64,000 bases of DNA from Blastococcus sp. DSM 46786. Its GTDB lineage: Bacteria > Actinomycetota > Actinomycetes > Mycobacteriales > Geodermatophilaceae. The stretch covers positions 1-64,000 of the forward strand of contig NZ_FOAO01000009.1 in assembly GCF_900109665.1 (NCBI RefSeq). The letters run 5' to 3'. The position numbers and the translations under genes were made by a program. Positions 50,261-64,000 of the stretch are shown here, one piece after another. The notes beneath the pieces are model-generated. The model searched no databases. It saw only the letters and a program-made list of their open reading frames with translations, and had not been told where the DNA came from. How positions within the stretch are numbered: the first letter of the stretch is position 1; each line of letters starts with the position of its first letter.

Positions 50261-50643
50261 GAGCGGCCCCCGGTCGCGAGGAGCCCGCGCAGCCGGGCGG
50301 GCAGCGCGGGGAGGCCCAGCACCGCGGCGAGCTCGGCCGGGCTGAGCCGGACGGGCAGGACGTCCTCGTCCCAGCCCGTGGCCAGGCGCACCCGGGCGGT
50401 GGAGGCCGGCCACACCGCCTCGCGAGCGGCGGCCACGTGCAGCTCGGTGAGCACGTCCTGCAGGTGGATCGTGGCCACCGGGTGCACCGAGCTGCCGGCG
50501 AGGGCGGTGCGCACCGAGGCGGCCAGCAGCTCGCGGGCGGTGGCGTCCAGCCAGTGCGGGACGAGCGTCGGCGAGCCGGCGTCGCCGGCGGGCAGCGCGC
50601 TCACCGGGCACCGCCCCGGTACCGCGCCCCGGTCCGCGCCCAC
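50257..50643 (-). CDS. Hypothetical protein, first gene of an unrecognised pair
   Basis: The protein of up to 128 residues has helical segments (PHWLDATARELLAASVRTAL, IHLQDVLTELHVAAAREAVW) and a C-terminal LSPAELAAVLGLPALPARLRGLL. Both it and its partner end in leucine-rich helices, and the four-base overlap suggests they form a complex (inference). GTG at 50643 or GTG at 50604 could be the start; neither has a strong ribosome site. No family is recognised. Confidence 0.55.
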   Translation of the reverse strand: MGADRGAVPGRCPVSALPAGDAGSPTLVPHWLDATARELLAASVRTALAGSSVHPVATIHLQDVLTELHVAAAREAVWPASTARVRLATGWDEDVLPVRLSPAELAAVLGLPALPARLRGLLATGGRS

Positions 50644-50890
50644 GGCCGGCAGGCCGGGCGGCAGGTCCTCGGGCGGGGTGTCACGTCGTGGATATCGGCA
50701 GGTTCAGGCCTCGTTCGACCCTGTGACAGGCCCTTTTCCGTATCGGATCTCCGGGGGGTCCGTCCCGTCCCGCGCGTCACCGCCGGCGGTCCGGGCGACC
50801 TGCCGCAACGCCGAGATCCCGCGCCCGCACGGAGGTGTGCGGGAGCGCGGGATCCACCGGCCTCGTCCAGAGGCTCACCCCGAGCATGGC
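50644..50890. other. Gene-free stretch upstream of the repeat block
   Basis: Bases 50644-50890, together with the repeats at 50891-51093, make a 450-base interval without a convincing gene. This part probably holds the promoter of the 50643 gene; AT-richer patches (TCGTGGATATCGG and TTTTCCGTATCGG, 50688-50747) are unusual for the window. Open frames across it have atypical composition and no ribosome site. Confidence 0.5.
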
Positions 50891-51093
50891 GACGTGCTGG
50901 AACGGCCTCCCTGCAGGTGCCCGCGCCGAGCAGGCGACGTGCTGGAACGGCCCCCTTCAGGGACCGCGCCGAGCAGGCGACGTGCTGGAACGGCTCCCTG
51001 CAGGGGCCCGCGCCGAGCGGGTGACGTACTGGAACGGCCCCCTTCAGGGACCCGCTGCGAGCGTGCGAGCGGTGGGCAGAAGGGGGTCCTTCT
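50891..51093. repeat. Tandem 44-bp repeat array ending in a dispersed inverted-repeat element
   Basis: Four tandem units start at 50891, 50936, 50979 and 51023 (45, 43, 44 and about 44 bases). Each opens GACGTGCTGGAACGGC (fourth: GACGTACTGG) and closes near CGCGCCGAGC. Each centre has a CCCTGCAGG/CCCTTCAGGG palindrome. The last unit runs into AAGGGGGTCCTTCTTC just before the sigma-like gene stop. Unit four plus this tail matches the minus strand of the element at 28611-28676. It may serve as a terminator between the two minus-strand units. Confidence 0.75.
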
Positions 51094-52197
51094 TCAGTCG
51101 GCGAGCTCGGCCAGCCGGTCCTTCAGCGCCTTCTCGACGCGGTCGGCGTAGACGTTCATGTTCCGGACCGAGGTGCCGAGGTCCGTCGAGAGCTGCGTCT
51201 TGGTCCGCCCGCCCCACGTCGTCAGGTACCAGGTCGCCCAGCCGAGGACGTTGGGCTGACCGGCCCGCTGGTCGCGACGCGCCTCCGGGTCCGGCGCGCA
51301 CGCGGCGGTCAAGGCGTGCGAGAGCAGCGTCTGCTCGGCCTCGCCCATGATCTCGTCGGGCGCCTCGGAGGAGTCCGGCAGCAGGATCTCGGTGGCCTCG
51401 GGGGCGCCGTCCAGCGACTGGAGGTTGCGCAGCCCGTTGAGCGTGGCCACCGTCTGGGAGTTGCGGCGTAGGGTGGCGACGCTCTGGCCCATGTAGGCGG
51501 CCAGCTCCTTCTCGCTGGGCCGCCGCTGGTGCTCGGCCATGAAGGCGGCGATCGCCTTCTGCTGCTTGTGCTCGGTGTCGGCGGCGGTCCGCCCGTGCGC
51601 GTTGCGCCCGAGGTCGTGCACCCACTTGGACAGCTGGGTGGCGAGGAAGGCCCCGAAGGGGACCGACTTGGTCTCGTCGTACTGGGCGACGGCCTTGAGG
51701 ATCCACTCGAAGACCTGCTGCCCCAGGTCGTCGGGGTCGGGCAGGTGCAGGCGGATCGTGCTCATGTTCCGCTGCAGGCGCTTGAGGCTGACCGGCCCGT
51801 AGTGGCGGCACAGGTCGTCGAGGAAGGCCGGCGGCAGGTCCCGCGGGGCGCGCCGGCGGACGCCGGTCTCCGCGCGCAGCCCGATGGTCGTGGTCCCCCG
51901 GCCGGCGCACCAGGCCTTCACCCAGTCGGCCAGCACGGCGGCCGAGCCGCAGGCCCCGTCCACGCGGTAGAGGCCGTCCCCCTGGTCGTAGGTGACCGTC
52001 ACGCCGTCGGGCAGGGCCTGGCGGAACTCGTCGAGCGGCAGTTCGTGGTCCACGCGGAAGTGCACCCGGTCGCGCGGGGTGATGGGCGCCAGCGCCCACC
52101 CGTCGGCCTCGGGGATGCCCCCGAAGACCAGGGGCTGGCGGGCACGGGCCCGGTCGTCGGCGGAGGTGGAGCTGGGGACGGGGATGCGGTCGGGCAT
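51094..52197 (-). CDS. Sigma-70-like protein with a novel N-terminal domain
   Basis: The protein (367 residues) begins with about 130 residues of unknown type. A region-2-like segment follows (QVFEWILKAVAQYDETKSVP, FGAFLATQLSKWVHDLGR), then a region-3-like helix pair (RRPSEKELAAYMGQSVATLRR), an acidic linker (LLPDSSEAPDEIMGEAEQ), and a C-terminal segment (TKTQLSTDLGTSVRNMNVYADRV) that could be a divergent region 4 helix-turn-helix. The likeness is to FliA/WhiG-type sigma factors but the key -10-recognition residues are uncertain. It may be a sigma factor or sigma mimic. ATG at 52197, 71 bases after the next gene upstream. Confidence 0.7.
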   Translation of the reverse strand: MPDRIPVPSSTSADDRARARQPLVFGGIPEADGWALAPITPRDRVHFRVDHELPLDEFRQALPDGVTVTYDQGDGLYRVDGACGSAAVLADWVKAWCAGRGTTTIGLRAETGVRRRAPRDLPPAFLDDLCRHYGPVSLKRLQRNMSTIRLHLPDPDDLGQQVFEWILKAVAQYDETKSVPFGAFLATQLSKWVHDLGRNAHGRTAADTEHKQQKAIAAFMAEHQRRPSEKELAAYMGQSVATLRRNSQTVATLNGLRNLQSLDGAPEATEILLPDSSEAPDEIMGEAEQTLLSHALTAACAPDPEARRDQRAGQPNVLGWATWYLTTWGGRTKTQLSTDLGTSVRNMNVYADRVEKALKDRLAELAD

Positions 52198-52268
52198 CGG
52201 TACTCCTGGGCACTACGGGGAAGAAGGGGTGCCGGGGCGGCAGGCACTCCGCACTGCACGGGAGGCCG

Positions 52269-52775
52269 TCAGGCCGGGATGCGCTCCCCCGGACCGGGGC
52301 GGCGCGGCGAGGGGACGAGCGGGACCGGCACCGAGGCCTCGGGCAGCGCCTCGAGCACCTCCACCGGCAAGCCGTCGGCGCGTGCGGCACCGGCGGCGGC
52401 GTGCTCCAGCAGAGCGGTGGCGGCGGCGCGCTCGGCGCTGCTCGGCTCGGCCGTGTAGACCGGCATGTGGTCGTACAGCGAGGTGAAGAGCGCCGACACG
52501 AAGGCGTACGCCGCCTGCGCCTGCGGGGAGAACCGGGCCACGGCGGCACGGGGGCCGAGGTCCACGCCGACGGTCACCCGGACGACGCGGTCGTCCTTGC
52601 TCAGGCCGGTGACGGCGACGACGACGTCCTCGTGCTCGGCGGCCAGCGCCGCGAGCGCCGCGAGGCACTTGCGGGTGGCGCCCCGGCGAGGTCGCAGCTG
52701 CACGTGGACCACCACGGACTCCTGGTCGCCGGTCTGGTCCCCCGCCACCGAAGCGGTGAATGCGTTACGTGCCAT
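52269..52775 (-). CDS. Hypothetical protein upstream of the sigma-like gene
   Basis: The 168-residue protein is not recognised. Residues 18-75 look like a small alpha/beta domain (ESVVVHVQLRPRRGATRKCLAAL, DVVVAVTGLSKDDRVVRVTVGVDL). A helical part follows (QAQAAYAFVSALFTSLYDHMP) and the tail is Pro-rich. The ATG at 52775 has GGGGG upstream. Its position between csrA and the sigma-like gene suggests a regulatory role (inference only). Confidence 0.6.
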   Translation of the reverse strand: MARNAFTASVAGDQTGDQESVVVHVQLRPRRGATRKCLAALAALAAEHEDVVVAVTGLSKDDRVVRVTVGVDLGPRAAVARFSPQAQAAYAFVSALFTSLYDHMPVYTAEPSSAERAAATALLEHAAAGAARADGLPVEVLEALPEASVPVPLVPSPRRPGPGERIPA

Positions 52776-52980
52776 CTTGATCGCCCCCTGTCACTTGCGT
52801 GAGGAGGAATCTGCCGCATGCACGCTCCGGACGCGGCACACAACTCGCTGTGTCCAGCGCAGTTGTGACGGGGAAGCTTCGGCAATAGTTGCCTGTGTCG
52901 GAGTCCGATCAGCCGGTCGCCACGTCAGATTGGCACGGTCTGCCGAGGTCGACCCCCCGGCGACCGTGCACATCTGCCGC

Positions 52981-53280
52981 TCAGCGGGACGTGCTGCCCT
53001 CCACCGCGGTCGCTCCGGCCGGCGCGGCCTCGGTCCCTGCGTCGTCCGGCGCCGCGGTGGGCGCGAACGCCGCCAGGGCGCCGAGCGTGTCGGCGGTGAC
53101 CTGGGCGGCCAGCAGGTTGGCCTCGGCGATCTGCCGGTAGACCTCCTCGCGGTGGATCGCGATCTCGCGAGGCGCCTTGAAGCCCAGGCGGACGGTGCCG
53201 CCCCGGACCTCGACGACGTGGACCTCGATGTCGTCGCCGATGCGGATCGTCTCGCCGACGCTGCGGGTGAGTGTGAGCAC
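52981..53280 (-). CDS. csrA: Carbon storage/translational regulator CsrA
   Basis: CsrA is a dimeric RNA-binding protein that recognises GGA in hairpin loops and blocks translation. The core LTLTRSVGETIRIGDDIEVHVVEVRGGTVRLGFKAP and REIAIHREEVYRQI elements are intact, including the RNA-binding first strand and the late Arg. About 35 extra Ala/Thr/Pro-rich residues follow the usual end. Next to fliW, it should control flagellin synthesis as in Bacillus subtilis. GTG at 53280 is preceded by GGAGGGG. It follows fliW by 92 bases. Confidence 0.95.
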   Translation of the reverse strand: MLTLTRSVGETIRIGDDIEVHVVEVRGGTVRLGFKAPREIAIHREEVYRQIAEANLLAAQVTADTLGALAAFAPTAAPDDAGTEAAPAGATAVEGSTSR

Positions 53281-53372
53281 GAGTACCCCTCCATGGGTGT
53301 GTGTGGTGGCCGTCCGTGGCGTCGCCCGCCGGGGCGGGCGTCGAAGCCGCGTCCCGACGCGGCGCAGTGAGG

Positions 53373-53816
53373 TTATCGGCGCAGGCGCCGCCGAAGGGGA
53401 AGGGAGCCGTCGTCCAGGACGACCTGCCGGGCGCGGGAGGTCGCGGGGGCGACGACCACCGGGGCCCGCAGGTTGGCCGTCGCCTCGGCCACGTCGCCGT
53501 CGGGCACGGTGACCAGGCAGAACACCCGCGCCTCGGCCGGATCGGCGAGCCCGAGCTCCACCCGCACGGCGGCGGGCAGGACGGGGGCGTACCCCGGGAA
53601 GAACTCCCGCGCCGGCACGGCGAGGAACCGGGGCCCGTCGGGGGCGACCGCCTGGAGCCAGAAGAGCAGCCCGGCGCTGTCCCCGGGGACCAGGACGTAG
53701 TCCCGGTGCCGCGGGAAACCCGGCAGCGGCTCGGCGAACGACAGCACCTGGACCGGGGGCGGAGCCGGTGCCGTCGTCGAGGCCGCCGCGGGGTGATCGG
53801 CGAGGGCGGTCGTCAA
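53373..53816 (-). CDS. fliW: Flagellar assembly factor FliW
   Basis: FliW binds either free flagellin or CsrA; when flagellin leaves through export, FliW sequesters CsrA. The 147 residues include the family features LSFAEPLPGFPRHRDYVLVP, LLFWLQAVAPDGPRFLAV, ARVFCLVTVPDGDVAEATANLRAPVVV and RQVVLDDGSLPLR. The start reads TTG at 53816, overlapping the flgL stop by four bases; the first 20 residues are Ala/Pro-rich, so a later start cannot be excluded. Its neighbours flgL and csrA support the identification. Confidence 0.93.
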   Translation of the reverse strand: MTTALADHPAAASTTAPAPPPVQVLSFAEPLPGFPRHRDYVLVPGDSAGLLFWLQAVAPDGPRFLAVPAREFFPGYAPVLPAAVRVELGLADPAEARVFCLVTVPDGDVAEATANLRAPVVVAPATSRARQVVLDDGSLPLRRRLRR

Positions 53817-54694
53817 CGCAGGTAGTCCATCAGCGTCGGGGAGATGGCCTTCGCTGTCGCCTGCAGCGCGGCCTGGTAACCGACCTGCTGCATCTGCAGC
53901 CGCATGATCGTGTTGGGCAGGTCCACGTTCTCGATCTCGCCGAGCTGGGCCTCCAGCGTCAGCGCCAGATCGCTGTTGATCTGCTGCTCGCGCTCGACGC
54001 GGGCCGCGCGGGCGCCCACGTCGGCGAGCCCGCCGAGCATCCGCTTCATCGCCGCGTCCAGGTCCACCAGCCCCTGGTCGAGGGCGGCGGGGTCGTTGAC
54101 GAGGTCGTCGGCGATCCGTGCCACCACGGCGAAGAGGTCGTCCCCGGGGGGTCCGAAGGCCTCCGGTCCGGTGAGGTCCACCCGGACCTCCTCGGTGAAG
54201 GCGACCCGGCGCATGACGTCGGCCCCGCCCATGCCGGTGAAGGCGCCGGTGTCGCTGTAGGCGTTGGCGCCCGTGGTTACCCCGCCGAAGACGGGCCGGC
54301 CCTGAATCGTCGTGTTCGCCAGGCCCAGGAGGCTCTCCCGCAGCGACTCGACCTCCGTCGCCAGCGCCCGCCGGCTGGCCTCGGACGAGCTGCCGGTGCT
54401 GGCACCCTGCACGGTGAGGTCGCGGACCCGCCGGGTGACGTCGAGCATGTTCTGCAGCGTGGAGTCGGTGATCGACAGCCAGCTGTCGGCGTCGGCGATG
54501 TTGCGGCCGAACTGCTCGACGGCGGCCTGCTCCGACCGGATCTGCATCGCCTTGTTCGTGCCGGTCGGCGAGTCGGACGGGGCGTTGAGGAGCCTGCCCG
54601 AGGTGAGCTGCTGCTGCAGCTTGCCGAACGAGTCGAGGCCACGGTTCAGACCCTGCAGGCTGGTGAGGGCGACGGCTCTCTGCGTGATGCGCAC
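53813..54694 (-). CDS. flgL: Flagellar hook-associated protein 3 (FlgL)
   Basis: This is the junction protein between hook-cap protein FlgK and the filament. The 293 residues share flagellin-like helical ends: the N-terminal RITQRAVALTSLQGLNRGLDSFGKLQQQLTSGRLLNAPSDSPTG pattern and the C-terminal RVEREQQINSDLALTLEAQLGEIENVDLPNTIMRLQ with YQAALQATAKAISPTLMDYL. The middle (GRPVFGGVTTGANAY) is short. GTG at 54694, five bases after the flgK stop; same operon as flgK, fliW and csrA. Confidence 0.95.
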   Translation of the reverse strand: MRITQRAVALTSLQGLNRGLDSFGKLQQQLTSGRLLNAPSDSPTGTNKAMQIRSEQAAVEQFGRNIADADSWLSITDSTLQNMLDVTRRVRDLTVQGASTGSSSEASRRALATEVESLRESLLGLANTTIQGRPVFGGVTTGANAYSDTGAFTGMGGADVMRRVAFTEEVRVDLTGPEAFGPPGDDLFAVVARIADDLVNDPAALDQGLVDLDAAMKRMLGGLADVGARAARVEREQQINSDLALTLEAQLGEIENVDLPNTIMRLQMQQVGYQAALQATAKAISPTLMDYLR

Positions 54695-54699
54695 TCAGA

Positions 54700-56100
54700 T
54701 CACAGCCCCACGCGGCCGGTGCGGTTGATCAGGACGTCGAGCATCTCGTCGATCGCCGTGACCAGCCGGCCCGCGGCCGAGTACGCGTGCTGGAAGGACA
54801 GCATGTTGGTCATCTCCTCGTCGAGGTTGACCCCGGCCACGGACTCCCGGGCAGCGTCCACCTGCCCGGTGATGACCGCCTGGATGCCGAGGTTGCGCTG
54901 CGAAACCGCCGACTGCACGCCCAGCTCGACGATCATCTTGCGGTAGGCCGCGTCGGGTGAGCCCACGCCGTTGCCCAGCTGGGCCAGCTTGTCGGCGTTC
55001 GCGTGGTCGAGGTTGGGAGTGCCGGGGCCGATGGACGACGCGGCGATCTTCCGCGGGTCGGTGAGGGTCACGGTGATCGACGACGCCGTCACCGGCCCGC
55101 CCGAGGAGCCGAGCAGCGCGCCGCCCTGCAACCCGTCGAGGTCGTAGCCGTCTGCGTGCGCGGTGTTCAGCACGGTGACCAGCGACGAGGCGATGCCGTC
55201 GAGCTCGGTTCGGTAGGTGGGGAGGATCGCGTTCAGCGCGTGCAGCTGCCCTCCGGCAGCACCCCCGACGGTGACCGGGAGACCGCCGGCGGCGGTGACG
55301 ACGCGCGGCGGGTCGCCGGCGGTGCCCGCCGGGTCGACCGTGCCGTGCACCGCGAGCTTCGACGCGGTGCCACCGGAGACCAGCGTGACGCTGCCGACGA
55401 CCACGTCGACGACACCGCCGTCCCGCGGCCGCACCGACACCCCCACCTGGTCGGCGAGCTTCATGACCAGCAGGTCGCGCTGGTCGGTGAGGTCGTTGGC
55501 CGGCAGGCCGCTCTGCGAGGCCCGCAGGATCGCGGTGTTCAGCTGGGCGATCGTCTCGGCCGCCGCATTGACGTCGTCGACGAGGACACCGAGGTTCTCG
55601 CGGGTCTGCAGCCACTGGCCGTCCAGTTGCGCGCTGCTGAAGTGCAGGCCGCCGACGAGCGTCTCGAGCCGCTTGAGCACCTGCCCCCGGGCGGCCGGGT
55701 CCTCCGGCTTGTTGGCCACGTCCTGCCATCCGCGCCACATGTCGGCCATGAGGTTCTGCAGGCCGGTGATCCCGGGCTCGCGGAACGCCTGCTCCACCAG
55801 CTCGTACGCATCCGTCTCGGCCGTCAGCTGCGCGCTGTTGGCGTGCTCCGTGTGCCCGCGACCCTCCAGGAAGGCGTCACGGATCCGCGTCATCTCGTCG
55901 GCGTTCACGCCGCCACCGATGCCGGTGCCGGTGGAGTAGAACGCCGGGACGGCGCTGCCGCCGATCGCCCGCATGTCGACGCGCTGCCGGGAGTACCCGT
56001 CGGTGTTGACGTTCGAGATGTTCTGACCGGTCACATCGAGCGCCCGGCGCTGCGCCCACAACGAGGTGGTCGCCGTGTTGAGGAGGCTGAAGGTGCTCAC
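54700..56100 (-). CDS. flgK: Flagellar hook-associated protein 1 (FlgK)
   Basis: This first hook-filament junction protein has 466 residues. It starts with the rod/hook-type motif TFSLLNTATTSLWAQRRALDVTGQNISNVNTDGYSRQRV and ends with the Flg_bbr_C block VDAARESVAGVNLDEEMTNML, FQHAYSAAGRLVTAIDEMLDVLINRTG. It is exported by the flagellar type III system and needs the chaperone FlgN, encoded just upstream with one base between the genes. GTG at 56100. Confidence 0.96.
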   Translation of the reverse strand: MSTFSLLNTATTSLWAQRRALDVTGQNISNVNTDGYSRQRVDMRAIGGSAVPAFYSTGTGIGGGVNADEMTRIRDAFLEGRGHTEHANSAQLTAETDAYELVEQAFREPGITGLQNLMADMWRGWQDVANKPEDPAARGQVLKRLETLVGGLHFSSAQLDGQWLQTRENLGVLVDDVNAAAETIAQLNTAILRASQSGLPANDLTDQRDLLVMKLADQVGVSVRPRDGGVVDVVVGSVTLVSGGTASKLAVHGTVDPAGTAGDPPRVVTAAGGLPVTVGGAAGGQLHALNAILPTYRTELDGIASSLVTVLNTAHADGYDLDGLQGGALLGSSGGPVTASSITVTLTDPRKIAASSIGPGTPNLDHANADKLAQLGNGVGSPDAAYRKMIVELGVQSAVSQRNLGIQAVITGQVDAARESVAGVNLDEEMTNMLSFQHAYSAAGRLVTAIDEMLDVLINRTGRVGL

Positions 56101-56101
56101 G

Positions 56102-56587
56102 TCAGAGTGCTCCGTCCAGGGTGACCGCTCGGTGGGCGCCGTCGGAGTGCCGGCCGCTCGCGCCGTACGTGCCCGTCGAGGACGTCCGCGTCTGCAGGAG
56201 CGCGTCCCCGATGGCGGAGAGGCCGCCCTCGATGAGCTCCCGGTTGGCGTCGGACAGGCTGCGCAGGTCGGTGATCAGGGTCAACAGCGCCTCGTGGTGC
56301 TGCGCGAGGAGGTCGTTCCACGGCGCGGGCGCCGCATCGGCGACCTGTCGCAGGGACGGGTTGGCGGACAGCCCGAGCCTCCCCGCGATCGCCTCGGTGG
56401 CTGCCGACCGCTCCACCTCGAGAGTGCGGAGCTGGTCGAGGATGACCTCGATCTCGTGCGCGATGCGCGCCAGCCAGCGGGTCTTGCCGGTGAGGATCAG
56501 GTACTGCTTCTCCTCGGCCTTGAACAGCAGCAGGTCCAGGAGCTCCTGCTCCCGCCACAGCATCGTCGACAGGTGCTGGTAGTCCAC
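56102..56587 (-). CDS. flgN: Flagellar export chaperone FlgN
   Basis: This helical chaperone serves FlgK and FlgL. The 161 residues begin with DYQHLSTMLWREQELLDLLLFKAEEKQYLILTGKTRWLARIAHE-like sequence in two helices, followed by ERSAATEAIAGRLGLSANPSLRQVAD and WNDLLAQHHEALLTLITDLRSLSDANRELI, ending in a low-complexity tail. GTG at 56587 is chosen over codons at 56674 and 56668 because a FliA-type promoter -10 element covers 56665-56672, which would leave those codons untranscribed, and GAAGGCGG precedes 56587. Confidence 0.85.
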   Translation of the reverse strand: MDYQHLSTMLWREQELLDLLLFKAEEKQYLILTGKTRWLARIAHEIEVILDQLRTLEVERSAATEAIAGRLGLSANPSLRQVADAAPAPWNDLLAQHHEALLTLITDLRSLSDANRELIEGGLSAIGDALLQTRTSSTGTYGASGRHSDGAHRAVTLDGAL

Positions 56588-56664
56588 GTGTCCACCGCCT
56601 TCCGTCGTCTCGCTCGTGCTCGCGGTCGCCCCGGCCGCAGGGCCGGCCACCGCCGTCGGTGCTG

Positions 56665-56692
56665 CCATCGGCACCCGTTCGGAGGGGGTTGA
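56665..56692 (-). promoter_or_regulatory. FliA-type promoter for flgN-flgK-flgL-fliW-csrA
   Basis: Read on the minus strand: TCAA-N16-GCCGATGG. It matches the sites before fliC and flgB in both boxes and in spacer length. Transcription would start about 70 bases before the flgN GTG at 56587. Confidence 0.65.
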
Positions 56693-56713
56693 GCCGAAGC
56701 ACGCAACTGGCGC

Positions 56714-56741
56714 TCACGTTCGTGCGGATTTGTGCCGACGG
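56714..56741 (+). promoter_or_regulatory. Possible FliA-type autoregulatory promoter of fliA
   Basis: TCAC-N16-GCCGACGG on the plus strand keeps the same spacer as the other flagellar sites, with a weaker downstream box. The start point would be about 34 bases before the fliA GTG at 56782. It is divergent from the flgN promoter 22 bases away. Confidence 0.45.
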
Positions 56742-56781
56742 GTGGTGCCGACTCCACCCGGGACAGCCGAGAGATACGGAT

Positions 56782-57744
56782 GTGACCCCAGTCCGTGCCC
56801 TCGCGACCGAGCGATCCCTGCGTGAGCGGTCCGCGCATGACCGGCCGTTGCGCGAACGCCCCCCGAACGGCCGGGTGCCCCACCCGGTCAAGGGACGGTC
56901 CCCGCAGGAGGTCGACGCCCTGGTGACCGAGCACCTGCCGCTCGCCGCCTTCGCCGTCAACGCCGTCGCCTCACGCATCTCCCTCCCGAGCCACGTGAGC
57001 CGTGAGGACCTCCTCTCCTGCGCGCACGTGGCGCTCGTCGAGGTGGCCCGCCGGTTCGACCCCTCGGCCGGCGCCTCGTTCGCGACGTACGCGCTGGCCC
57101 GGCTGCAGGGCGCGGTCCTCGACGGGCTGCGCTCCGGGGACTGGGCGAGCCGGTCGGTGCGGGCTGCGGCCCGCCGGACCGACGCCGCCGCCGACGCGCT
57201 GACCATCAGCCTGGGCCGGCCGCCTACGCGCGAGGAGCTGGCCACGAGCCTGGGGATCGCTCGCAGCGAGCTCGACCACCTGCAGGTCGACGTCCACCGC
57301 GCGGTCATGGTGAGCATCGACGCCGAGGCCGGTCCCGACGGCAGCACGCTGGACCTGCCCGACACCGGGGAGTCACCCGAGCGCGCCGTCCTGCGCGGGG
57401 AACGGGCACGGCACCTGCACGAGGCGATCCGCGCCCTGCCCGACCGGCTGGACGAGGTCATCGAGCGCAATTTCTTCGGTGATGAATCACTGACCGATAT
57501 CGCCGAGGGCCTAGAGGTGACGCTCTCCCGCGTCTCCCAGATGCGCGCCCGAGCCCTGACCCTCTTGCATGCCGCGATGAGCGAGATCTGGGACGGAAGG
57601 TCGGTCCCCGCCGACGGCGGCGTGCGCGCACGCAACCAGCAGCGCGCCTACCTCGACCGGGTCACCGGTCGCTGCGGCGCGCCGCTCCCCTCACCCCGAG
57701 CCGCCTGGCCGGTCACCCGGGATCACACCGCCCGGACGGCCTGA
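56782..57744 (+). CDS. fliA: Flagellar sigma factor FliA (sigma-28 family)
   Basis: The protein (320 residues) is a FliA/WhiG-type sigma. Region 2 lies in VSREDLLSCAHVALVEVARRFDPSAGASFATYALARLQGAVLDGLR. Region 3 lies in ALTISLGRPPTREELATSLGIARSELDHLQ. Region 4 lies in ALPDRLDEVIERNFFGDESLTDIAEGLEVTLSRVSQMRARALTLL. It should drive the late flagellar genes here. GTG at 56782 has GAGAGA upstream. About 50 basic N-terminal residues and a 50-residue C-terminal tail are beyond the normal family length. No anti-sigma FlgM is visible in the window. Confidence 0.93.
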   Translation: MTPVRALATERSLRERSAHDRPLRERPPNGRVPHPVKGRSPQEVDALVTEHLPLAAFAVNAVASRISLPSHVSREDLLSCAHVALVEVARRFDPSAGASFATYALARLQGAVLDGLRSGDWASRSVRAAARRTDAAADALTISLGRPPTREELATSLGIARSELDHLQVDVHRAVMVSIDAEAGPDGSTLDLPDTGESPERAVLRGERARHLHEAIRALPDRLDEVIERNFFGDESLTDIAEGLEVTLSRVSQMRARALTLLHAAMSEIWDGRSVPADGGVRARNQQRAYLDRVTGRCGAPLPSPRAAWPVTRDHTARTA

Positions 57745-57777
57745 TCCTCTGCGACGGAAAGAATTTGCCCACTCGGC

Positions 57778-57805
57778 TCAAGAGCCCCCGGGCACCGGCC
57801 GAAGA
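57778..57805 (+). promoter_or_regulatory. FliA-type promoter of fliC
   Basis: TCAA-N16-GCCGAAGA lies 71 bases before the flagellin ATG. The boxes resemble the enterobacterial sigma-28 consensus TAAA-N15-GCCGATAA. The predicted start point (about 57812) places the CsrA hairpin at 57820-57841 within the leader. Confidence 0.7.
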
Positions 57806-57819
57806 CCTTCCATGTACGG

Positions 57820-57871
57820 CCCGCAGCACGGATGCAGCGGGAAGACCAAGTACGACCCCTTCCAAGGAGGA
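57820..57871 (+). promoter_or_regulatory. Putative dual CsrA-binding site in the fliC leader
   Basis: Bases 57820-57841 fold as CCCGC-A-GCA / CGGA / TGC-A-GCGGG: a 5-bp stem, an A-A mismatch, a 3-bp stem and a CGGA loop. This shows GGA exactly where CsrA binds. A second GGA (57866-57868) lies in CCAAGGAGG, the Shine-Dalgarno of fliC. The two GGA triplets are 36 bases apart, within the range bridged by one CsrA dimer in other systems. Confidence 0.65.
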
Positions 57872-57876
57872 ACATC

Positions 57877-58710
57877 ATGGGTCTGCGCATCAACCAGAAC
57901 ATCGCTGCTCTCAACGCTCACCGCAACCTGTCGATCACCGACAGCCAGATGAGCAAGTCGCTCGAGAAGCTGTCCTCCGGCTTCCGGATCAACCGCGCCG
58001 CCGACGACGCGGCCGGTCTGGCGATCTCCGAGGGCCTGCGCTCGCAGGTCGGTGGCCTCAAGGTCGCCGTCCGCAACTCGCAGGACGGCGTCTCCGTGGT
58101 GCAGACGGCGGAAGGTGCCCTCACCGAGGTCCACGCCATCCTGCAGCGCGTCCGCGACCTGACGGTCCAGGCGGGCAACAGCGGCGTCGTCGACGAGAAG
58201 GCCCGCGGCTACATCGCGAAGGAGGTCACCGAGCTCGCCGGCGCGCTGACCGACATCGCCGGGCGGACCGACTTCAACGGCACCAAGCTCCTGAACGGCA
58301 GCGCCTCCAGCCTGTCGTTCCAGACCGGTGCCAACGGCGGCGAGACCATGACCGTGGAGCTCAGCAACGTCACCACGGTCGCCACGGCGGTCAGCGGCGT
58401 GGCCACGAACATGTCGGCCTCGGGCACCTACAGCGCCACGGCCGACCTGGCCACGCTGGACACCCAGATCAAGACGGTGTCGGAGTCCCGCGCCAGCCTG
58501 GGTGCGAAGCAGAACCGCTTCGAGAGCACCATCAACTCGCTCAACGTCTCGATCGAGAACCTGAGCGCGTCGGAGAGCCGGGTCCGCGACGCCGACATGG
58601 CACAGGAGATGGTCGGGTTCACCCGCGCCCAGATCCTGTCCCAGGCCGGCACCGCGATGCTCGCGCAGGCCAACCAGGCCTCGCAGGGCGTCCTCTCGCT
58701 GCTCCGCTGA
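57877..58710 (+). CDS. fliC: Flagellin
   Basis: This is the filament subunit, short at 277 residues: the conserved N-terminal D0/D1 helices (GLRINQNIAALNAHRNLSITDSQMSKSLEKLSSGFRINRAADDAAGLAISEGLRSQ), a reduced middle of about 60 residues rich in Ser/Thr, and the C-terminal helices (ASLGAKQNRFESTINSLNVSIENLSASESRVRDADMAQEM, ANQASQGVLSLLR). The outer D2/D3 domains are missing. The Thr/Ser-rich centre could be glycosylated by the nearby glycosyltransferase (inference). ATG at 57877 has a perfect AAGGAGG site. Confidence 0.96.
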   Translation: MGLRINQNIAALNAHRNLSITDSQMSKSLEKLSSGFRINRAADDAAGLAISEGLRSQVGGLKVAVRNSQDGVSVVQTAEGALTEVHAILQRVRDLTVQAGNSGVVDEKARGYIAKEVTELAGALTDIAGRTDFNGTKLLNGSASSLSFQTGANGGETMTVELSNVTTVATAVSGVATNMSASGTYSATADLATLDTQIKTVSESRASLGAKQNRFESTINSLNVSIENLSASESRVRDADMAQEMVGFTRAQILSQAGTAMLAQANQASQGVLSLLR

Positions 58711-58761
58711 TCCTCGATCAGCTGAACAGCTGAGGCCGCAGACCCTCAGCAGCACCCCGGG

Positions 58762-58793
58762 TGAGGGGGGAGGCCCTCGTGCCTCCCCCCTCA
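58762..58793 (+). terminator. fliC terminator
   Basis: TGAGGGGGGAGGC and its complement pair perfectly over 13 bp around a six-base loop (CCTCGT), 52 bases past the flagellin stop. It should cut flagellin transcription before fliD, so fliD would rely on read-through or another promoter that I could not find. Confidence 0.8.
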
Positions 58794-58835
58794 TTCGCGT
58801 GGGCCCCCGATCGCACCGACCCAGGAGCCAGTGAC

Positions 58836-60188
58836 ATGACGATGAGCATCAACACCGGCCTGGTGTCCGGGATCGACACCGGCACGATGATCACCCAGCT
58901 CCTGCAGCTCGAGGCCCGGCAGCAGAACTCGCTGAAGACGCGGTTGTCCGCGACGCAGGTCGCCGCCAGCGCCTACCGCACCGTCAACAGCTCGCTCGCG
59001 GCCCTGACGACCAGCGCCGAGTCGCTGCTCAAGCCGGAGTCGTTCGCCACCACGAAGGCCAGCAGCACTGCCGCCTCGGTCGCGGTCGCGACCACCTCCT
59101 ACGCCTCCCCCGGGTCCCTCACCTTCACCGTCGCCAAGGTGGCGACCACCGCCTCCAGCGTGAGCACCGGCCGGTGGTCGAGCACCACCACCGCCGCCGG
59201 GATGAGCACCCTGGACATCCGGACCGCCGACGGGACGACCAGCAAGGGCTCGGTCGTCCTGGACGGCACCGAGTCGCTCGAGCAGATCGCGGCGAAGATC
59301 AACGGGGACGCAGCCCTGGGCCTGAAGGCCTCCGCGGTGCAGGTCTCCCCCGGGCAGTTCGCCCTGCAGATCAGCGCGAGCACGTCGGGCGAGGCCGCCG
59401 GCTTCTCCGTCGCAGGCACGGAGTTCACGACCACCAGCCTCGGGCAGGACGCCGAGCTGAAGGTCGGCGAGGACACCGCCACCACGACGAGCTACACGAT
59501 CCGTTCGGCCACCAACACGTTCGAGGGCGTCCTGCCGGGCGCGACCCTCACGGTGAGCAAGGTGGAGCCCACCCCGGTCACCGTCACGGTCGCCACGGAC
59601 CCCGCTGCCGTCGCCGACAAGGTCTCCGCGCTCGTCGACGCTGTGAACAAGGCGCTGTCGACGATCGAGACCTACACGGACAACACGCCGGGGAGCAAAG
59701 CGGCGTTGCGCGGTGAGTACGCGGTGACCTCCATCGCCGGCCAGCTCCTGCAGGCCGTCTCCGAGGCGGTCGGCACCGACGGCTCGCCGGCCCAGGTCGG
59801 CTTCCAGACCACCCGCGACGGTCAGATCACCTTCGACAAGGCGAAGTTCGCCGCCGCCCTCGCGGCGACGCCGGACCTGGCCCAGCGCATCGTGGTCGGT
59901 TCCGGGGTGACCGGCGAGCCCGACGCCGTCGTCGGCCTGGCCGCGCGGGTCCGCGACGTCAGCAAGGCCGCGTCGGACGCGACGACCGGCACGCTCAGTT
60001 CCCTGGCCACGGGCCAGGACAGCCTCGCGCGCGACATCCAGGACCGGATCGCCGACTGGGACCTGCGCCTGGCCGCACGCAAGGTGGCCCTCACCCGCCA
60101 GTTCACCGCCATGGAGACCGCGCTGAGCTCCCTGACCAACCAATCCAACTGGCTGGCCGGTCAGCTCGGTTCACTGCCGTCTTCCTGA
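58836..60188 (+). CDS. fliD: Flagellar filament cap protein (FliD)
   Basis: FliD caps the growing filament and helps flagellin fold. The 450 residues show the FliD N-terminal pattern SINTGLVSGIDTGTMITQLLQLEARQQNSLKTRLSATQV, a Thr/Ser/Val-rich central region, and the C-terminal FliD block KVSALVDAVNKALSTIETYTDNT, RDGQITFDKAKFAAALAATPDLAQ, with a final coiled coil FTAMETALSSLTNQSNWLAGQLGSL. ATG at 58836 is preceded by CAGGAG. fliS follows after 49 bases. Confidence 0.94.
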   Translation: MTMSINTGLVSGIDTGTMITQLLQLEARQQNSLKTRLSATQVAASAYRTVNSSLAALTTSAESLLKPESFATTKASSTAASVAVATTSYASPGSLTFTVAKVATTASSVSTGRWSSTTTAAGMSTLDIRTADGTTSKGSVVLDGTESLEQIAAKINGDAALGLKASAVQVSPGQFALQISASTSGEAAGFSVAGTEFTTTSLGQDAELKVGEDTATTTSYTIRSATNTFEGVLPGATLTVSKVEPTPVTVTVATDPAAVADKVSALVDAVNKALSTIETYTDNTPGSKAALRGEYAVTSIAGQLLQAVSEAVGTDGSPAQVGFQTTRDGQITFDKAKFAAALAATPDLAQRIVVGSGVTGEPDAVVGLAARVRDVSKAASDATTGTLSSLATGQDSLARDIQDRIADWDLRLAARKVALTRQFTAMETALSSLTNQSNWLAGQLGSLPSS

Positions 60189-60237
60189 CGCCGCCCCGCC
60201 CGACCCGCTCGCCTCTTCACCTCAGGAGCCCTTCCCG

Positions 60238-60624
60238 ATGAGTGCTGCTTCGCTCCGCGCCCGCTACCTCGGCGACGCCGTAGCCACCGCCTCGCCGCAG
60301 CAGGTGCTGGTCATGCTCTACGACCGGCTGGCCCTCGACCTCGAGCGGGCGCAGCTCGCGGTCGCCGAGGGAGACCGCCCCCGGGTGAACGAGGAGCTCC
60401 AGCACGCACAGTCGATCGTGCTGGAACTGCTGTCCAGCCTGCAGGTCGACATGTGGGAGGGCGGGCCCCGCCTGGCCGCCCTCTACAACTGGTTGATGAG
60501 CGAGCTCGTGCAGGCCAACCTCAAGTGCGACGCGAACCGCATCGCCGCCTGCCGGGCGGTCGTCGAGCCGCTGCGCGACGCGTGGCGGCAGGCCGCCGCC
60601 TCCTTGGCGGGCGTCCCGTCATGA
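60238..60624 (+). CDS. fliS: Flagellin export chaperone FliS
   Basis: FliS binds the C-terminal helices of flagellin and prevents early polymerisation. The 128 residues contain the four-helix pattern ARYLGDAVATASPQQVLVMLYDRLALDLERAQLAV, VNEELQHAQSIVLELLSSLQVDM and LAALYNWLMSELVQANLK. ATG at 60238 follows CAGGAG. The last four bases overlap the next gene (ATGA). Confidence 0.95.
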   Translation: MSAASLRARYLGDAVATASPQQVLVMLYDRLALDLERAQLAVAEGDRPRVNEELQHAQSIVLELLSSLQVDMWEGGPRLAALYNWLMSELVQANLKCDANRIAACRAVVEPLRDAWRQAAASLAGVPS

Positions 60625-61049
60625 CCGTCGGTCCGGTCAGCGGCTCCGCCGCAGCCGGTTTCGGCTCCAGCCCGTACACGCCTGCCGGCCGGCCGAACGC
60701 CTCCGGCAGCTCCACCTCCGGCGACCGGCACCCGCCCGCCGACTGGCACGAGGCCCTCGACCAGCTCGAGGGCGACGTCATCGACGCCCAGGAGAGCCTC
60801 GCCCGGGGCCGGGCCGAGGAGATCGCCGCGTGGGGCCGGCGCAGCACCGACTGGGTACCCCCGTCCGGGCTCGGCCCCCTGCCCGCCGACCTGCGGGAGC
60901 GGGCCGCGCGGCTGCTGCAGCACCAGCTGGCGGTCGCCGAGGCCCTGGTGGAGCGGATCACGCAGTCCCAGAAGCAGCGCGACCTCGCCGCCCGCATGTC
61001 CTACGGCGCCGAGCGACCCGTGCCCTCCTTCATCGATCGCGGGCTCTGA
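60621..61049 (+). CDS. FliT-position helical flagellar protein
   Basis: The 142-residue protein is not clearly similar to a named family. After a disordered Ser/Gly/Pro N-terminus (about 45 residues) it has helices WHEALDQLEGDVIDAQESLAR and LRERAARLLQHQLAVAEALVERITQSQKQRDL, the usual shape of small export chaperones. Overlap with fliS by four bases, and position after fliD-fliS, make it a candidate FliT-like chaperone for FliD (inference). Confidence 0.65.
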   Translation: MTVGPVSGSAAAGFGSSPYTPAGRPNASGSSTSGDRHPPADWHEALDQLEGDVIDAQESLARGRAEEIAAWGRRSTDWVPPSGLGPLPADLRERAARLLQHQLAVAEALVERITQSQKQRDLAARMSYGAERPVPSFIDRGL

Positions 61050-61202
61050 CGCGGGTCCGCCTCCGCGGCGGAAGAGCGCGCTGACGGAACCGTCGGGGGT
61101 CCCGACTGCCGATGACAGAGGAGCGAGCGCCGGCTCCCGGCGCCGGGCACCGCCCCAGCGCACCACTCCCGGCAGCCGTCACAGACAGAAGGGTCCTTCC
61201 AC

Positions 61203-62294
61203 ATGCGCGTCCTGCTCACCCACGCGATCGCCCAGGGTTCGACGTACTACCGCGTCGAGGAGCCCGCCCGCGCCGTCCAGGCCGCAGGGCTCGGCATCGA
61301 GGTCGCCGTCTCCCGCGGGATCCGGACCACCATGCGCTCGGTCACCGAGGGCGCCCCGATGGAGGTCGTCGACGTCGACAGCCAGGGCGCGGACGTCGTC
61401 GTCCTGCAGCTGCCGAAGACCGCCGAGATGCTGCAGACGCAGCGCATCCTGCAGGCGCAGGGGGTCGCCGTCGTCGTGGAGATGGACGACCTGCTCTCCG
61501 GCGTCCCGTACGGCCACATGGGGCACGACGCCCTGGTGCGTGCCGGCAGCAGCGGGTTCGCGGCCCAGGCCGCCCGGGAGGCGGACCTGGTGACCACCTC
61601 GACGCCCGCGCTGCTCACGGAGTACGCCCGCCACGGCCGCGGCACGGTGATCGAGAACGCCGTTCCCCGCCGAACTGCGGAGCTGCCGCCGGCCTACGAG
61701 CGCACCCCGGAGACCGTGACCATCGGCTGGGCCGGCAGCGTGCCCAGCCACCCGTACGACCTGCAGGAGATGGGTTCCGGTCTGCAGCAGGCGCTGGACC
61801 GGACCCGCGGGCGCAGCCGGCTGGTCATCCTCGGCCAGAAGTGGGACATCAAGGTGCGCCTGGGGCTGCCGGACGAGCCGGAGGAGGTGCCCTGGGTGAT
61901 GGACGTGGACGGGTACGCGGCGCGGATGGGCGAGCTGTTCGACATCGGGATCGCCCCGTTGCGGATCGACCGCTTCAACACGAGCAAGAGCTGGCTGAAG
62001 CCGCTGGAGTACTCCGCGCGGGGCGTGTACTGCGTGCGCGCCCGCACCGAGGAGTACGAGCGGCTCGGGCTGGGGATGCCCGCCCGCGCACCCAAGGACT
62101 GGGCCAAGTGGCTCACGCTCGGCGTGAAGGACGCCGACCGCCGGCGGGAGGTCGCCGCGGCGGCCCGGGAGCACGTGCTGGCCCACCACCTGACCGAGCA
62201 CACCGCCGAGCGCTGGGCAGCCGCCTGGCGGACCGCGCGGGAGAACCGCACCCGCGCCCTCGGGGGTGGGCGGCTCGCCACCGCCGCACGCTGA
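61203..62294 (+). CDS. Glycosyltransferase within the flagellar cluster
   Basis: The 363-residue protein has a GT-B-type pattern: RVLLTHAIAQGSTYYRVEEPARAVQ at the N-terminus, VVVLQLPKTAEMLQTQRIL, VVVEMDDLLSGVPYGH, then TIGWAGSVPSHPYDLQEMGSGL, FDIGIAPLRIDRFNTSKSWLKPLEYSARGV (the donor-site region, with the Glu) and a C-terminal helix. A signal peptide is absent, so it acts in the cytoplasm. Between fliS and flgB, its most likely target is flagellin. ATG at 61203 follows AGAAGGG. GCCGATGA at 61108-61115 could be part of a FliA-type promoter, but no matching upstream box is seen. Confidence 0.85.
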   Translation: MRVLLTHAIAQGSTYYRVEEPARAVQAAGLGIEVAVSRGIRTTMRSVTEGAPMEVVDVDSQGADVVVLQLPKTAEMLQTQRILQAQGVAVVVEMDDLLSGVPYGHMGHDALVRAGSSGFAAQAAREADLVTTSTPALLTEYARHGRGTVIENAVPRRTAELPPAYERTPETVTIGWAGSVPSHPYDLQEMGSGLQQALDRTRGRSRLVILGQKWDIKVRLGLPDEPEEVPWVMDVDGYAARMGELFDIGIAPLRIDRFNTSKSWLKPLEYSARGVYCVRARTEEYERLGLGMPARAPKDWAKWLTLGVKDADRRREVAAAAREHVLAHHLTEHTAERWAAAWRTARENRTRALGGGRLATAAR

Positions 62295-62305
62295 CCTCCT
62301 CCCTC

Positions 62306-62344
62306 CGAACGCCCCGCCGCCGACTTTCGGCAGCGGGGCGTTCG
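62306..62344 (+). terminator. Terminator of the glycosyltransferase gene
   Basis: CGAACGCCCCGC (62306-62317) pairs perfectly with GCGGGGCGTTCG (62333-62344), and an inner 5-bp stem GCCGA/TCGGC closes on CTT. It starts 11 bases after the stop. Confidence 0.85.
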
Positions 62345-62653
62345 TGCGTTCCTGCGGCGGGGTCACGATCCCGCCCACCCACGGGCGCGACATGTGCCAA
62401 CTCCCCCGCCCCGGTCGACCCGGGACCAGGCGAGGTCCCCTCTGGTCACATCCGCCCCCGTCACCTCATCCGGTGGCTGGCGTCCCTCGGGTGGCGGAGC
62501 GGTGGTCAGCCGGTACCGGCCGGCTGCCGATGAAGCCTGTGCACGGAGAGCACCACCATCGCCACGGATCGGCGGCCCCTCACTCGCTCGCGAGTGCGTT
62601 CCGCGTACCCGGAGGTCGATCGTGTCCTGCTCCACCCGCCGGCGAGGCGGCCG
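62345..62653 (+). other. Intergenic leader before flgB, no gene seen
   Basis: This 309-base interval contains no convincing gene. It holds a FliA-like promoter at 62506-62533, a hairpin-forming CTCGCTCGCGAG near 62583, and GGAGG at about 62611-62615, too far from the flgB ATG at 62654 to act as its ribosome site. Short open frames cross it without ribosome sites and with unlike composition. Confidence 0.5.
62506..62533 (+). promoter_or_regulatory. FliA-type promoter for flgB-flgC-fliE-fliF
   Basis: TCAG-N16-GCCGATGA repeats the spacing and both boxes of the fliC and flgN sites. Transcription would start about 115 bases before the flgB ATG. If real, rod and basal-body genes are at least partly under FliA here, unlike the class-2 control usual in enterobacteria. 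Confidence 0.55.
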
Positions 62654-63001
62654 ATGATCCCCGACGCCACCTCGTCGGTCCTGAAGGCGGCCCTCGCCGG
62701 GCTCGCGCAGCGGCAGCGCGTCACCGCCGACAACATCGCGAACGTCAACACCCCCGGCTTCCTCGCCGGGCGGACCGACTTCGAGACGTCGCTGCGCGGG
62801 GCCGTCCGCAGCGGCGCCACACCGGTCATCTCCGGCGGCACGACCGGCCGCTCGCTGGAGCCGACCAACACCAACGGCAACAACGTCAACCTCGATGCGG
62901 AGACCGTCATCGCCACCGAGACCGGGCTGCGCTACCAGCTGGCGCTCAACGCCCTGGACGGCAGGTACAACTCGCTCCGCACCGCCCTGAGGACCTCGTA
63001 G
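62654..63001 (+). CDS. flgB: Flagellar basal-body rod protein FlgB
   Basis: This proximal rod protein has 115 residues. It has the rod-family motif RVTADNIANVNTPGFLAGRTDFE and a C-terminal helix TGLRYQLALNALDGRYNSLRTAL. ATG at 62654 lacks a strong ribosome site; an in-frame start at 62594 would add 20 residues with no better site. flgC follows two bases after its stop. Confidence 0.93.
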   Translation: MIPDATSSVLKAALAGLAQRQRVTADNIANVNTPGFLAGRTDFETSLRGAVRSGATPVISGGTTGRSLEPTNTNGNNVNLDAETVIATETGLRYQLALNALDGRYNSLRTALRTS

Positions 63002-63003
63002 AC

Positions 63004-63408
63004 ATGAGCATGTTCCAGGCCCTGAGCATCTCCCAGTCCGGGCTCATGACCCACCGGAAGTGGCTCGACGCCACCGCCGACAACATCGCCAACATCAACA
63101 CGGTGCGGCGCACCGACGAGGACGCCTTCCAGGCGCGGCTCGTCGTCGCCCAAGCGGTGGACTACGGCAGCGGCGAGGGCGGCGTGCGCGTGGCCCGCGC
63201 CGAGTTCGGCGACCCGGAGGGCCGGCTGGTCTACCAGCCCGACCACCCGCTGGCCGACGAGGGCGGTTACGTGAAGTACCCGGACATCGACCTGGGTGAC
63301 CAGATGACCCACATGATGATGGCCCAGCGCGGCTACCAGGCCAACCTGGCCGTCATCGAGCGGGCCACCAACGCCTACCAGGCGGCGCTGCAGCTCGGGA
63401 AGCGTTGA
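63004..63408 (+). CDS. flgC: Flagellar basal-body rod protein FlgC
   Basis: This rod protein has 134 residues, with MFQALSISQSGLMTHRKWLDATADNIANINT at the N-terminus and the family C-terminus YVKYPDIDLGDQMTHMMMAQRGYQANLAVIERATNAYQAALQLG. Its stop overlaps the fliE start by one base (TGATG). It belongs to a flgB-flgC-fliE-fliF operon in the classic order. Confidence 0.95.
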   Translation: MSMFQALSISQSGLMTHRKWLDATADNIANINTVRRTDEDAFQARLVVAQAVDYGSGEGGVRVARAEFGDPEGRLVYQPDHPLADEGGYVKYPDIDLGDQMTHMMMAQRGYQANLAVIERATNAYQAALQLGKR

Positions 63409-63722
63409 TGACGATCCCGCTCGGCGGCATCACCCCGGTCGGGGTCGGCGCGGTCACCGGCGTCGCCGGCAGCACCCGCGGCACGCCCGCGACCGAGGGA
63501 GCCGACGGCTTCGCCGCCGTCCTCGCCTCCACCTTCGACGCGCTCCAGGCCAAGCAGTCGGTGACCTCCGAGCTGGCCGTGCAGGCCGCCACCGGCGACC
63601 TGAAGGACGTGCACGACTACATGATCGCCAGCGCTGAGTCCGGCGTGGCGACCGAGATGGTCGTGACGATCAAGAACCAGGCCGTCGCGGCCTTCAACGA
63701 GATCATGAGGATGCAGATCTGA
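63408..63722 (+). CDS. fliE: Flagellar hook-basal body complex protein FliE
   Basis: FliE joins the MS-ring to the rod. The 104 residues have a Gly/Thr-rich N-terminus and the typical C-terminal half ELAVQAATGDLKDVHDYMIASAESGVATEMVVTIKNQAVAAFNEIMRMQI. ATG at 63408 is chosen; a TTG one codon earlier is also in frame. The stop overlaps the fliF ATG by one base. Confidence 0.93.
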   Translation: MTIPLGGITPVGVGAVTGVAGSTRGTPATEGADGFAAVLASTFDALQAKQSVTSELAVQAATGDLKDVHDYMIASAESGVATEMVVTIKNQAVAAFNEIMRMQI

Positions 63723-64000
63723 TGAAGTCGGCACTCGCCGGGACGCTGGAGCGTGCCCGCTCCTCGTTCGACACGATCAGCCTCGGGCAGAAGGTCGTCA
63801 TCGGCCTGCTGCTCGCCGGGCTGACCCTCGGCGGGTTCTTCTTCTACAGCTGGATCACCACGCCGACCCAGGCCCCGCTGTTCTCCAACCTCGCCGCGAG
63901 CGACGCCTCGGCCATCGTCGAGGAGCTCAACGCCCAGGGTGTGGCCTACGACCTGGCGGACGGCGGCAGCACGATCATGGTCGCCAAGGACGCCGTGTAC
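63722..64000 (+). CDS. fliF: Flagellar M-ring protein FliF (5' part, runs off the window)
   Basis: Only the first 93 codons are present. FliF forms the MS-ring in the cytoplasmic membrane. A membrane helix (VVIGLLLAGLTLGGFFFYSWI, about residues 25-45) is followed by the start of the first ring-building domain (TPTQAPLFSNLAASDASAIVEELNAQGVAYDLADGGSTIMV). The ATG overlaps the fliE stop. The frame is open at base 64000, so the gene continues outside. Confidence 0.95.
   Translation, partial: MKSALAGTLERARSSFDTISLGQKVVIGLLLAGLTLGGFFFYSWITTPTQAPLFSNLAASDASAIVEELNAQGVAYDLADGGSTIMVAKDAVY

Follow-up and report, generated by a model that had tools for sequence, protein, structure and literature searches.

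The soil bacterium Blastococcus sp. DSM 46786 carries a flagellin gene in the stretch of 64,000 nucleotides analysed here (contig NZ_FOAO01000009.1, positions 1 to 64,000; hereafter the window), and the question raised by the leader of this gene is whether an actinobacterium controls its flagellin mRNA with CsrA and the CsrA antagonist FliW. A sequence-only reading of the window had proposed such a switch, citing a leader hairpin with GGA in its loop, a second GGA in the ribosome site 36 bases on, and fliW and csrA about 4 kb away in the same cluster. The analysis supports, with good confidence, a reading of the leader as an operator with two CsrA sites, from which FliW would release the flagellin mRNA. 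Published sources are identified by their PubMed Central numbers and cited for the passages of them that were available. The features concerned are:

57877..58710, plus strand: flagellin gene (fliC/hag), the presumed target (Pfam Flagellin_N and Flagellin_C; ATG at 57877-57879)
57811..57876, plus strand: predicted 5' untranslated leader of the flagellin mRNA, its start placed from the promoter-like sequence
57777..57805, plus strand: sigma28/FliA-like promoter (CTCAAG at 57777-57782, 15 nt, GCCGAAGA at 57798-57805), from the pattern CTYA-N17/18-CCGWW
57820..57841, plus strand: candidate CsrA site 1, hairpin CCCGC-a-GCA / TGC-a-GCGGG with a CGGA loop, from sequence, folding, conservation and covariation
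57828..57834, plus strand: conserved loop core ACGGATG, from the alignment of distinct hairpin segments
57863..57871, plus strand: candidate CsrA site 2, CAAGGAGGA, overlapping the Shine-Dalgarno sequence, from the enrichment of CA[AC]GGA at flagellin ribosome sites
56659..57744, plus strand: FliA-like sigma factor ORF directly upstream of the leader (Pfam Sigma70 regions 2, 3 and 4), true start possibly further in
52981..53280, minus strand: csrA, 99 aa including a C-terminal extension, with R44 and N55 present (ORF list; Pfam CsrA, 4.2e-24)
53373..53816, minus strand: fliW ORF, the predicted CsrA antagonist, true start possibly further in (Pfam FliW, 6.9e-29)

The nearest named kin of the flagellin are Blastococcus records. 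From 57744 to the ATG, a sigma28-like promoter, the GGA-loop hairpin and the ribosome site follow one another. The hairpin is composed of the 5' arm CCCGCAGCA (57820-57828), the loop CGGA (57829-57832) and the 3' arm TGCAGCGGG (57833-57841); its sequence and coordinates had been given correctly, but the stem has eight pairs and one A-A mismatch (57825/57836) instead of nine pairs. The second GGA lies where it had been placed, at 57866 in the ribosome site (CCAAGGAGG / CAAGGAGG), and the loop GGA at 57830 precedes it by 36 nt. A search of positions 50000-64000 of the window against Rfam yielded no RNA family match at E up to 5.

The segment 57777..57805, which we take to be a sigma28-type promoter, matches a pattern (CTYA-N17/18-CCGWW) that occurs upstream in 64 of 97 hairpin-bearing leaders, as against 7 of 5000 segments of 100 nt drawn at random from the window, and that ends 16-27 nt before the loop GGA in 55 of these 64; the other 33 leaders did not match it. 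Its position places the expected transcript start near 57811, 5' of the hairpin, and a start downstream of 57842, which would remove the hairpin, appears unlikely given the sequence at 57777-57805.

The 22-mer hairpin is its own minimum-energy fold (-11.5 kcal/mol, z -3.3 against shuffles) and is retained in the minimum-energy folds of segments of 43, 75 and 93 nt (z -2.0, -0.8 and -0.8), the two longer of which are no more stable than their own shuffles. Judging the hairpin by folding energy alone was abandoned as uninformative, since such structures are ordinary for GC-rich DNA: of 2170 GGA trinucleotides counted over the two strands of the window, 80, that of the leader among them, lie in the loop of an equally or more stable hairpin. 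Neither the stability of the hairpin nor the presence of GGA within a Shine-Dalgarno sequence proves anything by itself, and the case is therefore carried by comparison across genomes.

Two genome sets were compared. The first consisted of 60 relatives including the window's own genome (40 with a flagellin match, 20 without), and the second of 394 genomes of the class, which shares the window genome (G000) and G011 with the first. In the class set, 54 genomes matched Flagellin_N with E no higher than 1e-15; in 10 of these the matches were weak and FlgL-like and their leaders were left out, so that 44 genomes were covered. A GGA-loop hairpin with a score of at least 12 precedes at least one flagellin in all 40 flagellated relatives and in 42 of the 44 class genomes, counting in that of G115, which was scored wrongly by the script and whose ACGGAUG stem comes to about 10 by hand; one further leader (L130) was scored in an alternative register. 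Two class genomes lack the hairpin: G433, which is complete and gave no CsrA match, and G136, which has CsrA and FliW and yet shows no hairpin in the single flagellin leader examined. Both sets together comprise 118 leaders, 107 of them distinct, of which 97 reach score 12 and 82 reach a stem score of 15, as against 2.7 expected from shuffles of the leaders; because the leaders are related sequences, these counts overstate the number of independent events.

Most Blastococcus-like genomes share an identical 22-mer between differing flanks, and in more distant genomes the stem varies around a constant loop. Covariation of the hairpin in related genomes, which the sequence-only reading had named as a check, was found. 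In an alignment of 24 hairpins, changes on both sides occur at 7 of 9 pairs, and the covariation is 0.401, compared with 0.107 when partners are shuffled and no more than 0.095 when they are slid (one row with a GGC loop, L037a, is in and L048, also with a GGC loop, is out; 21 loci with an ambiguous loop are omitted; the window's copy and one copy from G044 were added by hand). Among 67 distinct cores, changes on both sides occur at all 9 pairs, and the covariation is 0.54 as against 0.146 for shuffled partners. The A-N-GGA loop is kept, and its consensus, C-A-[C,U,A]-GGA-[U,C]-G, agrees with the CsrA SELEX consensus RUACARGGAUGU quoted in PMC7652899. These comparisons argue that the hairpin is a real, conserved element and very probably a functional RNA, and they make CsrA by far the likeliest ligand.

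The ribosome site carries a context of its own. Of 85 distinct flagellin ribosome sites, 58 have CA[AC]GGA and 79 have CA(N)GGA; among 111 control starts the corresponding counts are 4 and 29, and the figures are rough because the control starts include spurious ORFs. By another count, 53 of 97 flagellin leaders have CAAGGA and 17 have CACGGA, as against 1 and 0 of 60 starts in the window. A GGA alone is expected in any Shine-Dalgarno sequence; the enrichment supports a site 2 that is CsrA-like beyond what a Shine-Dalgarno sequence requires. The spacing of 36 nt falls inside the published range for CsrA bridging, 10-63 nt and best above 18 (PMC7652899).

The gene company agrees with the proposal that fliW and csrA are encoded about 4 kb away: both have Pfam matches and lie 4.0-4.7 kb upstream of the flagellin on the opposite strand, together with flgK- and flgL-like ORFs, and each has one match in the window genome. 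CsrA is present in 40 of 40 flagellin-bearing and 0 of 20 flagellin-less relatives. In the class set it is present in 56 genomes in total, comprising 50 of the 54 with Flagellin_N and 6 of the 340 without. The four genomes with Flagellin_N and no CsrA match are G081, G425, G433 and G324, and of the three whose leaders were examined, G081 (80% complete) and G425 (63% complete) have a GGA-loop hairpin and G433 has none. G126 has FliW and no CsrA or flagellin match.

Every one of the 40 CsrAs from the relatives, that of the window among them, has the RNA-binding residue R44. CsrA N55 is required for FliW binding in Campylobacter jejuni and, as quoted there, in Bacillus subtilis (PMC7829508). Residue 55 is Asn in 36 of 36 relatives with FliW and in none of the 4 without. 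Of 39 further class genomes, which bring the coverage to 41 of the 56 that have CsrA, all 33 with FliW carry Asn at position 55 of the main CsrA and none of the 6 without FliW does; these six are less informative because they also lack a flagellin match. Both sets combined give Asn in 69 of 69 FliW-bearing and 0 of 10 FliW-less genomes, of which 4 are flagellated. The FliW-bearing genome G343 encodes a second, divergent CsrA with Arg at this position. One genus of the class has a divergent family of CsrA-like proteins (MLVLAR or MLVIAR at the start, RRGEL or RRAEL): four genomes carry it and have no flagellin match, and one flagellin-bearing genome has it as an additional copy (L182, L184, L185, L187, L221). 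A conserved ORF lies 3' of csrA on the same strand (window: 52269-52775, minus strand), with 53-55% identity to copies in two FliW-less relatives (L139: 45-611 and L140: 103-594, both minus strand) and no Pfam match above the cut-off; it is a candidate for a new CsrA partner or flagellar protein.

Several described systems resemble this arrangement. The hag leader of B. subtilis likewise has two CsrA sites, the second on the Shine-Dalgarno sequence, and FliW as antagonist; it belongs to another phylum, and its sites (BS1, A51-A55; BS2, C75-G82; Yakhnin 2007 as quoted in PMC8523840 and PMC7652899) are about 24 nt apart instead of 36. The closest leader described in the available passages is that of C. 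jejuni flaA, with two ANGGA stem-loops (PMC4894983). It shares ANGGA in hairpin loops, a second site over the ribosome site, compensatory changes among relatives and FliW as antagonist, and differs in that its second site is also a stem-loop and that fliW lies apart from csrA. The sequence-only reading had traced the known mechanism to Firmicutes, which holds for Bacillus hag but is too narrow, as the C. jejuni system shows (PMC4894983). The fliC leader of Clostridioides difficile (PMC8523840), a member of Bacillota, combines a SELEX-like GGA site (BS1, TGACAAGGATGT) with a CsrA-like Shine-Dalgarno sequence (BS2, CTAAGGAGGG), both predicted there, and effects of FliW and CsrA on FliC have been reported. 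In the Escherichia coli glgC leader, CsrA is tethered at a hairpin and bridges from there to the Shine-Dalgarno sequence (PMC7652899); glgC is a metabolic gene, and the CsrA antagonists there are sRNAs, not FliW.

For actinobacteria, the available passages name Actinobacteria among the phyla possibly using FliW on CsrA, proposed from gene presence (PMC4682653), list CsrA and FliW among flagellar queries (PMC10746217), give the gene order fliA-flgN-flgK-flgL-fliW-csrA in Actinosynnema (PMC9019756) and name csrA of Modestobacter as a starvation gene (PMC8602919). No description of an actinobacterial leader of this type was found in the available passages of the open-licence PubMed Central literature. 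The principle of FliW, CsrA and flagellin is known.

By analogy with Bacillus and Campylobacter, from which we infer CsrA binding, repression, bridging and the flagellin-FliW limb, one RNA pocket of a CsrA dimer would hold the ACGGAUG hairpin loop and the other would reach to CAAGGAGG. The bridged CsrA would cover the ribosome site and stop flagellin translation; FliW from the same cluster would bind CsrA via the N55 region and free the mRNA; and unexported flagellin would hold FliW, so that flagellin would be made only when it can be exported. The FliW-CsrA-flagellin switch that had been proposed gains support from the covariation, the context of site 2, the promoter-like sequence, the co-occurrence of CsrA and flagellin, and R44 and N55, and it is likely to operate here.

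CsrA might instead act on this leader chiefly through mRNA stability, or as an activator, or the flagellin mRNA might be a sponge that titrates CsrA. The C. jejuni flaA mRNA is itself a CsrA antagonist (PMC4894983), and the hairpin is expected near the 5' end, in a position able to protect the mRNA; a second site with CsrA-like context on the Shine-Dalgarno sequence is nevertheless what ribosome blocking predicts, and we regard these alternatives as unlikely. It is distinctly improbable that the hairpin serves another factor, or merely stabilises the 5' end of a highly expressed mRNA whose ribosome site is just a strong Shine-Dalgarno sequence. Such a reading could appeal to the commonness of GGA-loop hairpins in this GC-rich DNA and to the hairpins of G081 and G425, which lack a CsrA match in genomes that are both incomplete. 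However, a plain stabiliser needs no conserved A-N-GGA-N-G loop, and 84 distinct hairpin segments, all chosen for a GGA loop, have A two positions ahead of GGA in 82 cases and G as the second base behind it in 82. Moreover, CACGGAGG keeps its CsrA-like letters despite pairing less well with 16S rRNA than AAGGAGG does, and hairpin, flagellin and csrA mostly travel together. We give hardly any credence to a DNA operator palindrome in place of an RNA, because, even though the stem is an inverted repeat that compensatory changes would also preserve and G-U pairs are neutral on the matter (34 as against 38 in shuffled stems), the best conserved part is the asymmetric loop and the element lies on the sense strand between the promoter-like sequence and the ribosome site.

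A covariance model of the hairpin (R1), trained on a set that includes the window, gave the flagellin leader as its top match in the window genome (E 1.7e-5). A best match below 1e-3 was obtained for 31 of the 40 flagellated genomes and for none of the 20 non-flagellated ones; the other 9 flagellated relatives gave no match below that value. Some match at E up to 0.5 exists in all 60 genomes, and in G008, G010 and G047 the best one is off the leader. The second match in the window genome (G000:C24:135031), apparently in protein-coding DNA, was set aside as chance. Among 120 candidates scored per genome, no wider CsrA regulon was found. Applied to 46 of the 50 class loci, R1 gave 41 hits with E no higher than 1, some of which missed the leader or fell on the wrong strand, and the alignment made from them was set aside. 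R1 also matched two copies of a sequence at about 31 bits (G017:C1:144742 and 2614291; also in G021, G007 and G010), several of them near contig ends, perhaps a ribosomal RNA hairpin.

Of 80 named loci, many of which come from genomes already in the two sets, 67 reach score 15. Going by record titles, GGA-loop hairpins beyond the class accompany a CAAGGAGG or CACGGAGG site in MAGs labelled Thermoanaerobacteraceae (score 21.5) and Thermoleophilia (14.5), in Bacterium HR32 (12) and in a Pelobacter record (20). An Acidimicrobiia MAG (15.5) pairs its hairpin with a CAGGGAGG site; Paenibacillus camelliae reaches no more than 11 and a Clostridia MAG 6.5. CsrA is present in 10 of 10 searched genomes of such loci. 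The class to which the Pelobacter record belongs shows flagellin matches in 29 of 78 genomes; 31 of 36 leaders scored there reach score 12 and 11 reach 15, as against 0.21 expected, with the alternative starts of L348 counted twice and 3 of 30 loci giving no start. CA(N)GGA stands at the ribosome site in 22 of these 36 leaders.

Additional flagellins differ in their leaders. Eleven extra flagellin leaders in the relatives, not counting the hairpin-bearing tandem copies of G044 and G057, comprise 3 with the same hairpin, 1 with an unlike GGA loop and 7 with none. The second, divergent flagellin of the window genome (L046; G000:C19:1128-2321) has a leader without a CsrA-type hairpin and so may escape the switch. 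In the FliW-less genome G028, the extra leaders L037 (first flagellin) and L048 have a perfect stem but GGC in place of the loop GGA, which looks like loss of CsrA control over the extra copies.

Four of the 40 flagellated relatives (G025, G035, G028 and G031) have no FliW match anywhere in their genomes. In all four, csrA begins 132-143 nt past the flgL stop, which leaves no room for fliW there; residue 55 of CsrA is Arg, Arg, Gln and Gln, respectively, and CsrA, R44 and the GGA-loop hairpin at the main flagellin are retained. An RpoB tree of 18 genomes favours, rather than resolves, a single clade of the four (support 73/66, 73% of bootstraps); a single loss of FliW therefore suffices, and the four may represent one event. 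FliW is thus not indispensable to the leader, judged by its persistence in these genomes. With fliW gone and N55 replaced by Arg or Gln, and with R44 and the leader site kept, CsrA there would need another switch or be governed by the flagellin mRNA load alone. On balance, we favour the view that a leader with paired CsrA sites is an ancient component of flagellin genes (in Actinomycetota, in the class containing Pelobacter and, from print and one MAG, in Bacillota), that it can outlive FliW, and that in the FliW-less branch of the family CsrA is switched in one of these two ways.

The leader element supplies the target site and makes the switch directly testable in a second large Gram-positive phylum, and the FliW-less relatives are natural cases of a target that persists after the loss of the antagonist and of the residue contacting it. 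The leader also fits the suggestion in PMC4894983 that CsrA and FliW had their older role in controlling flagellum assembly. For the organism, the predicted benefit is that the cell probably holds back flagellin until export is possible.
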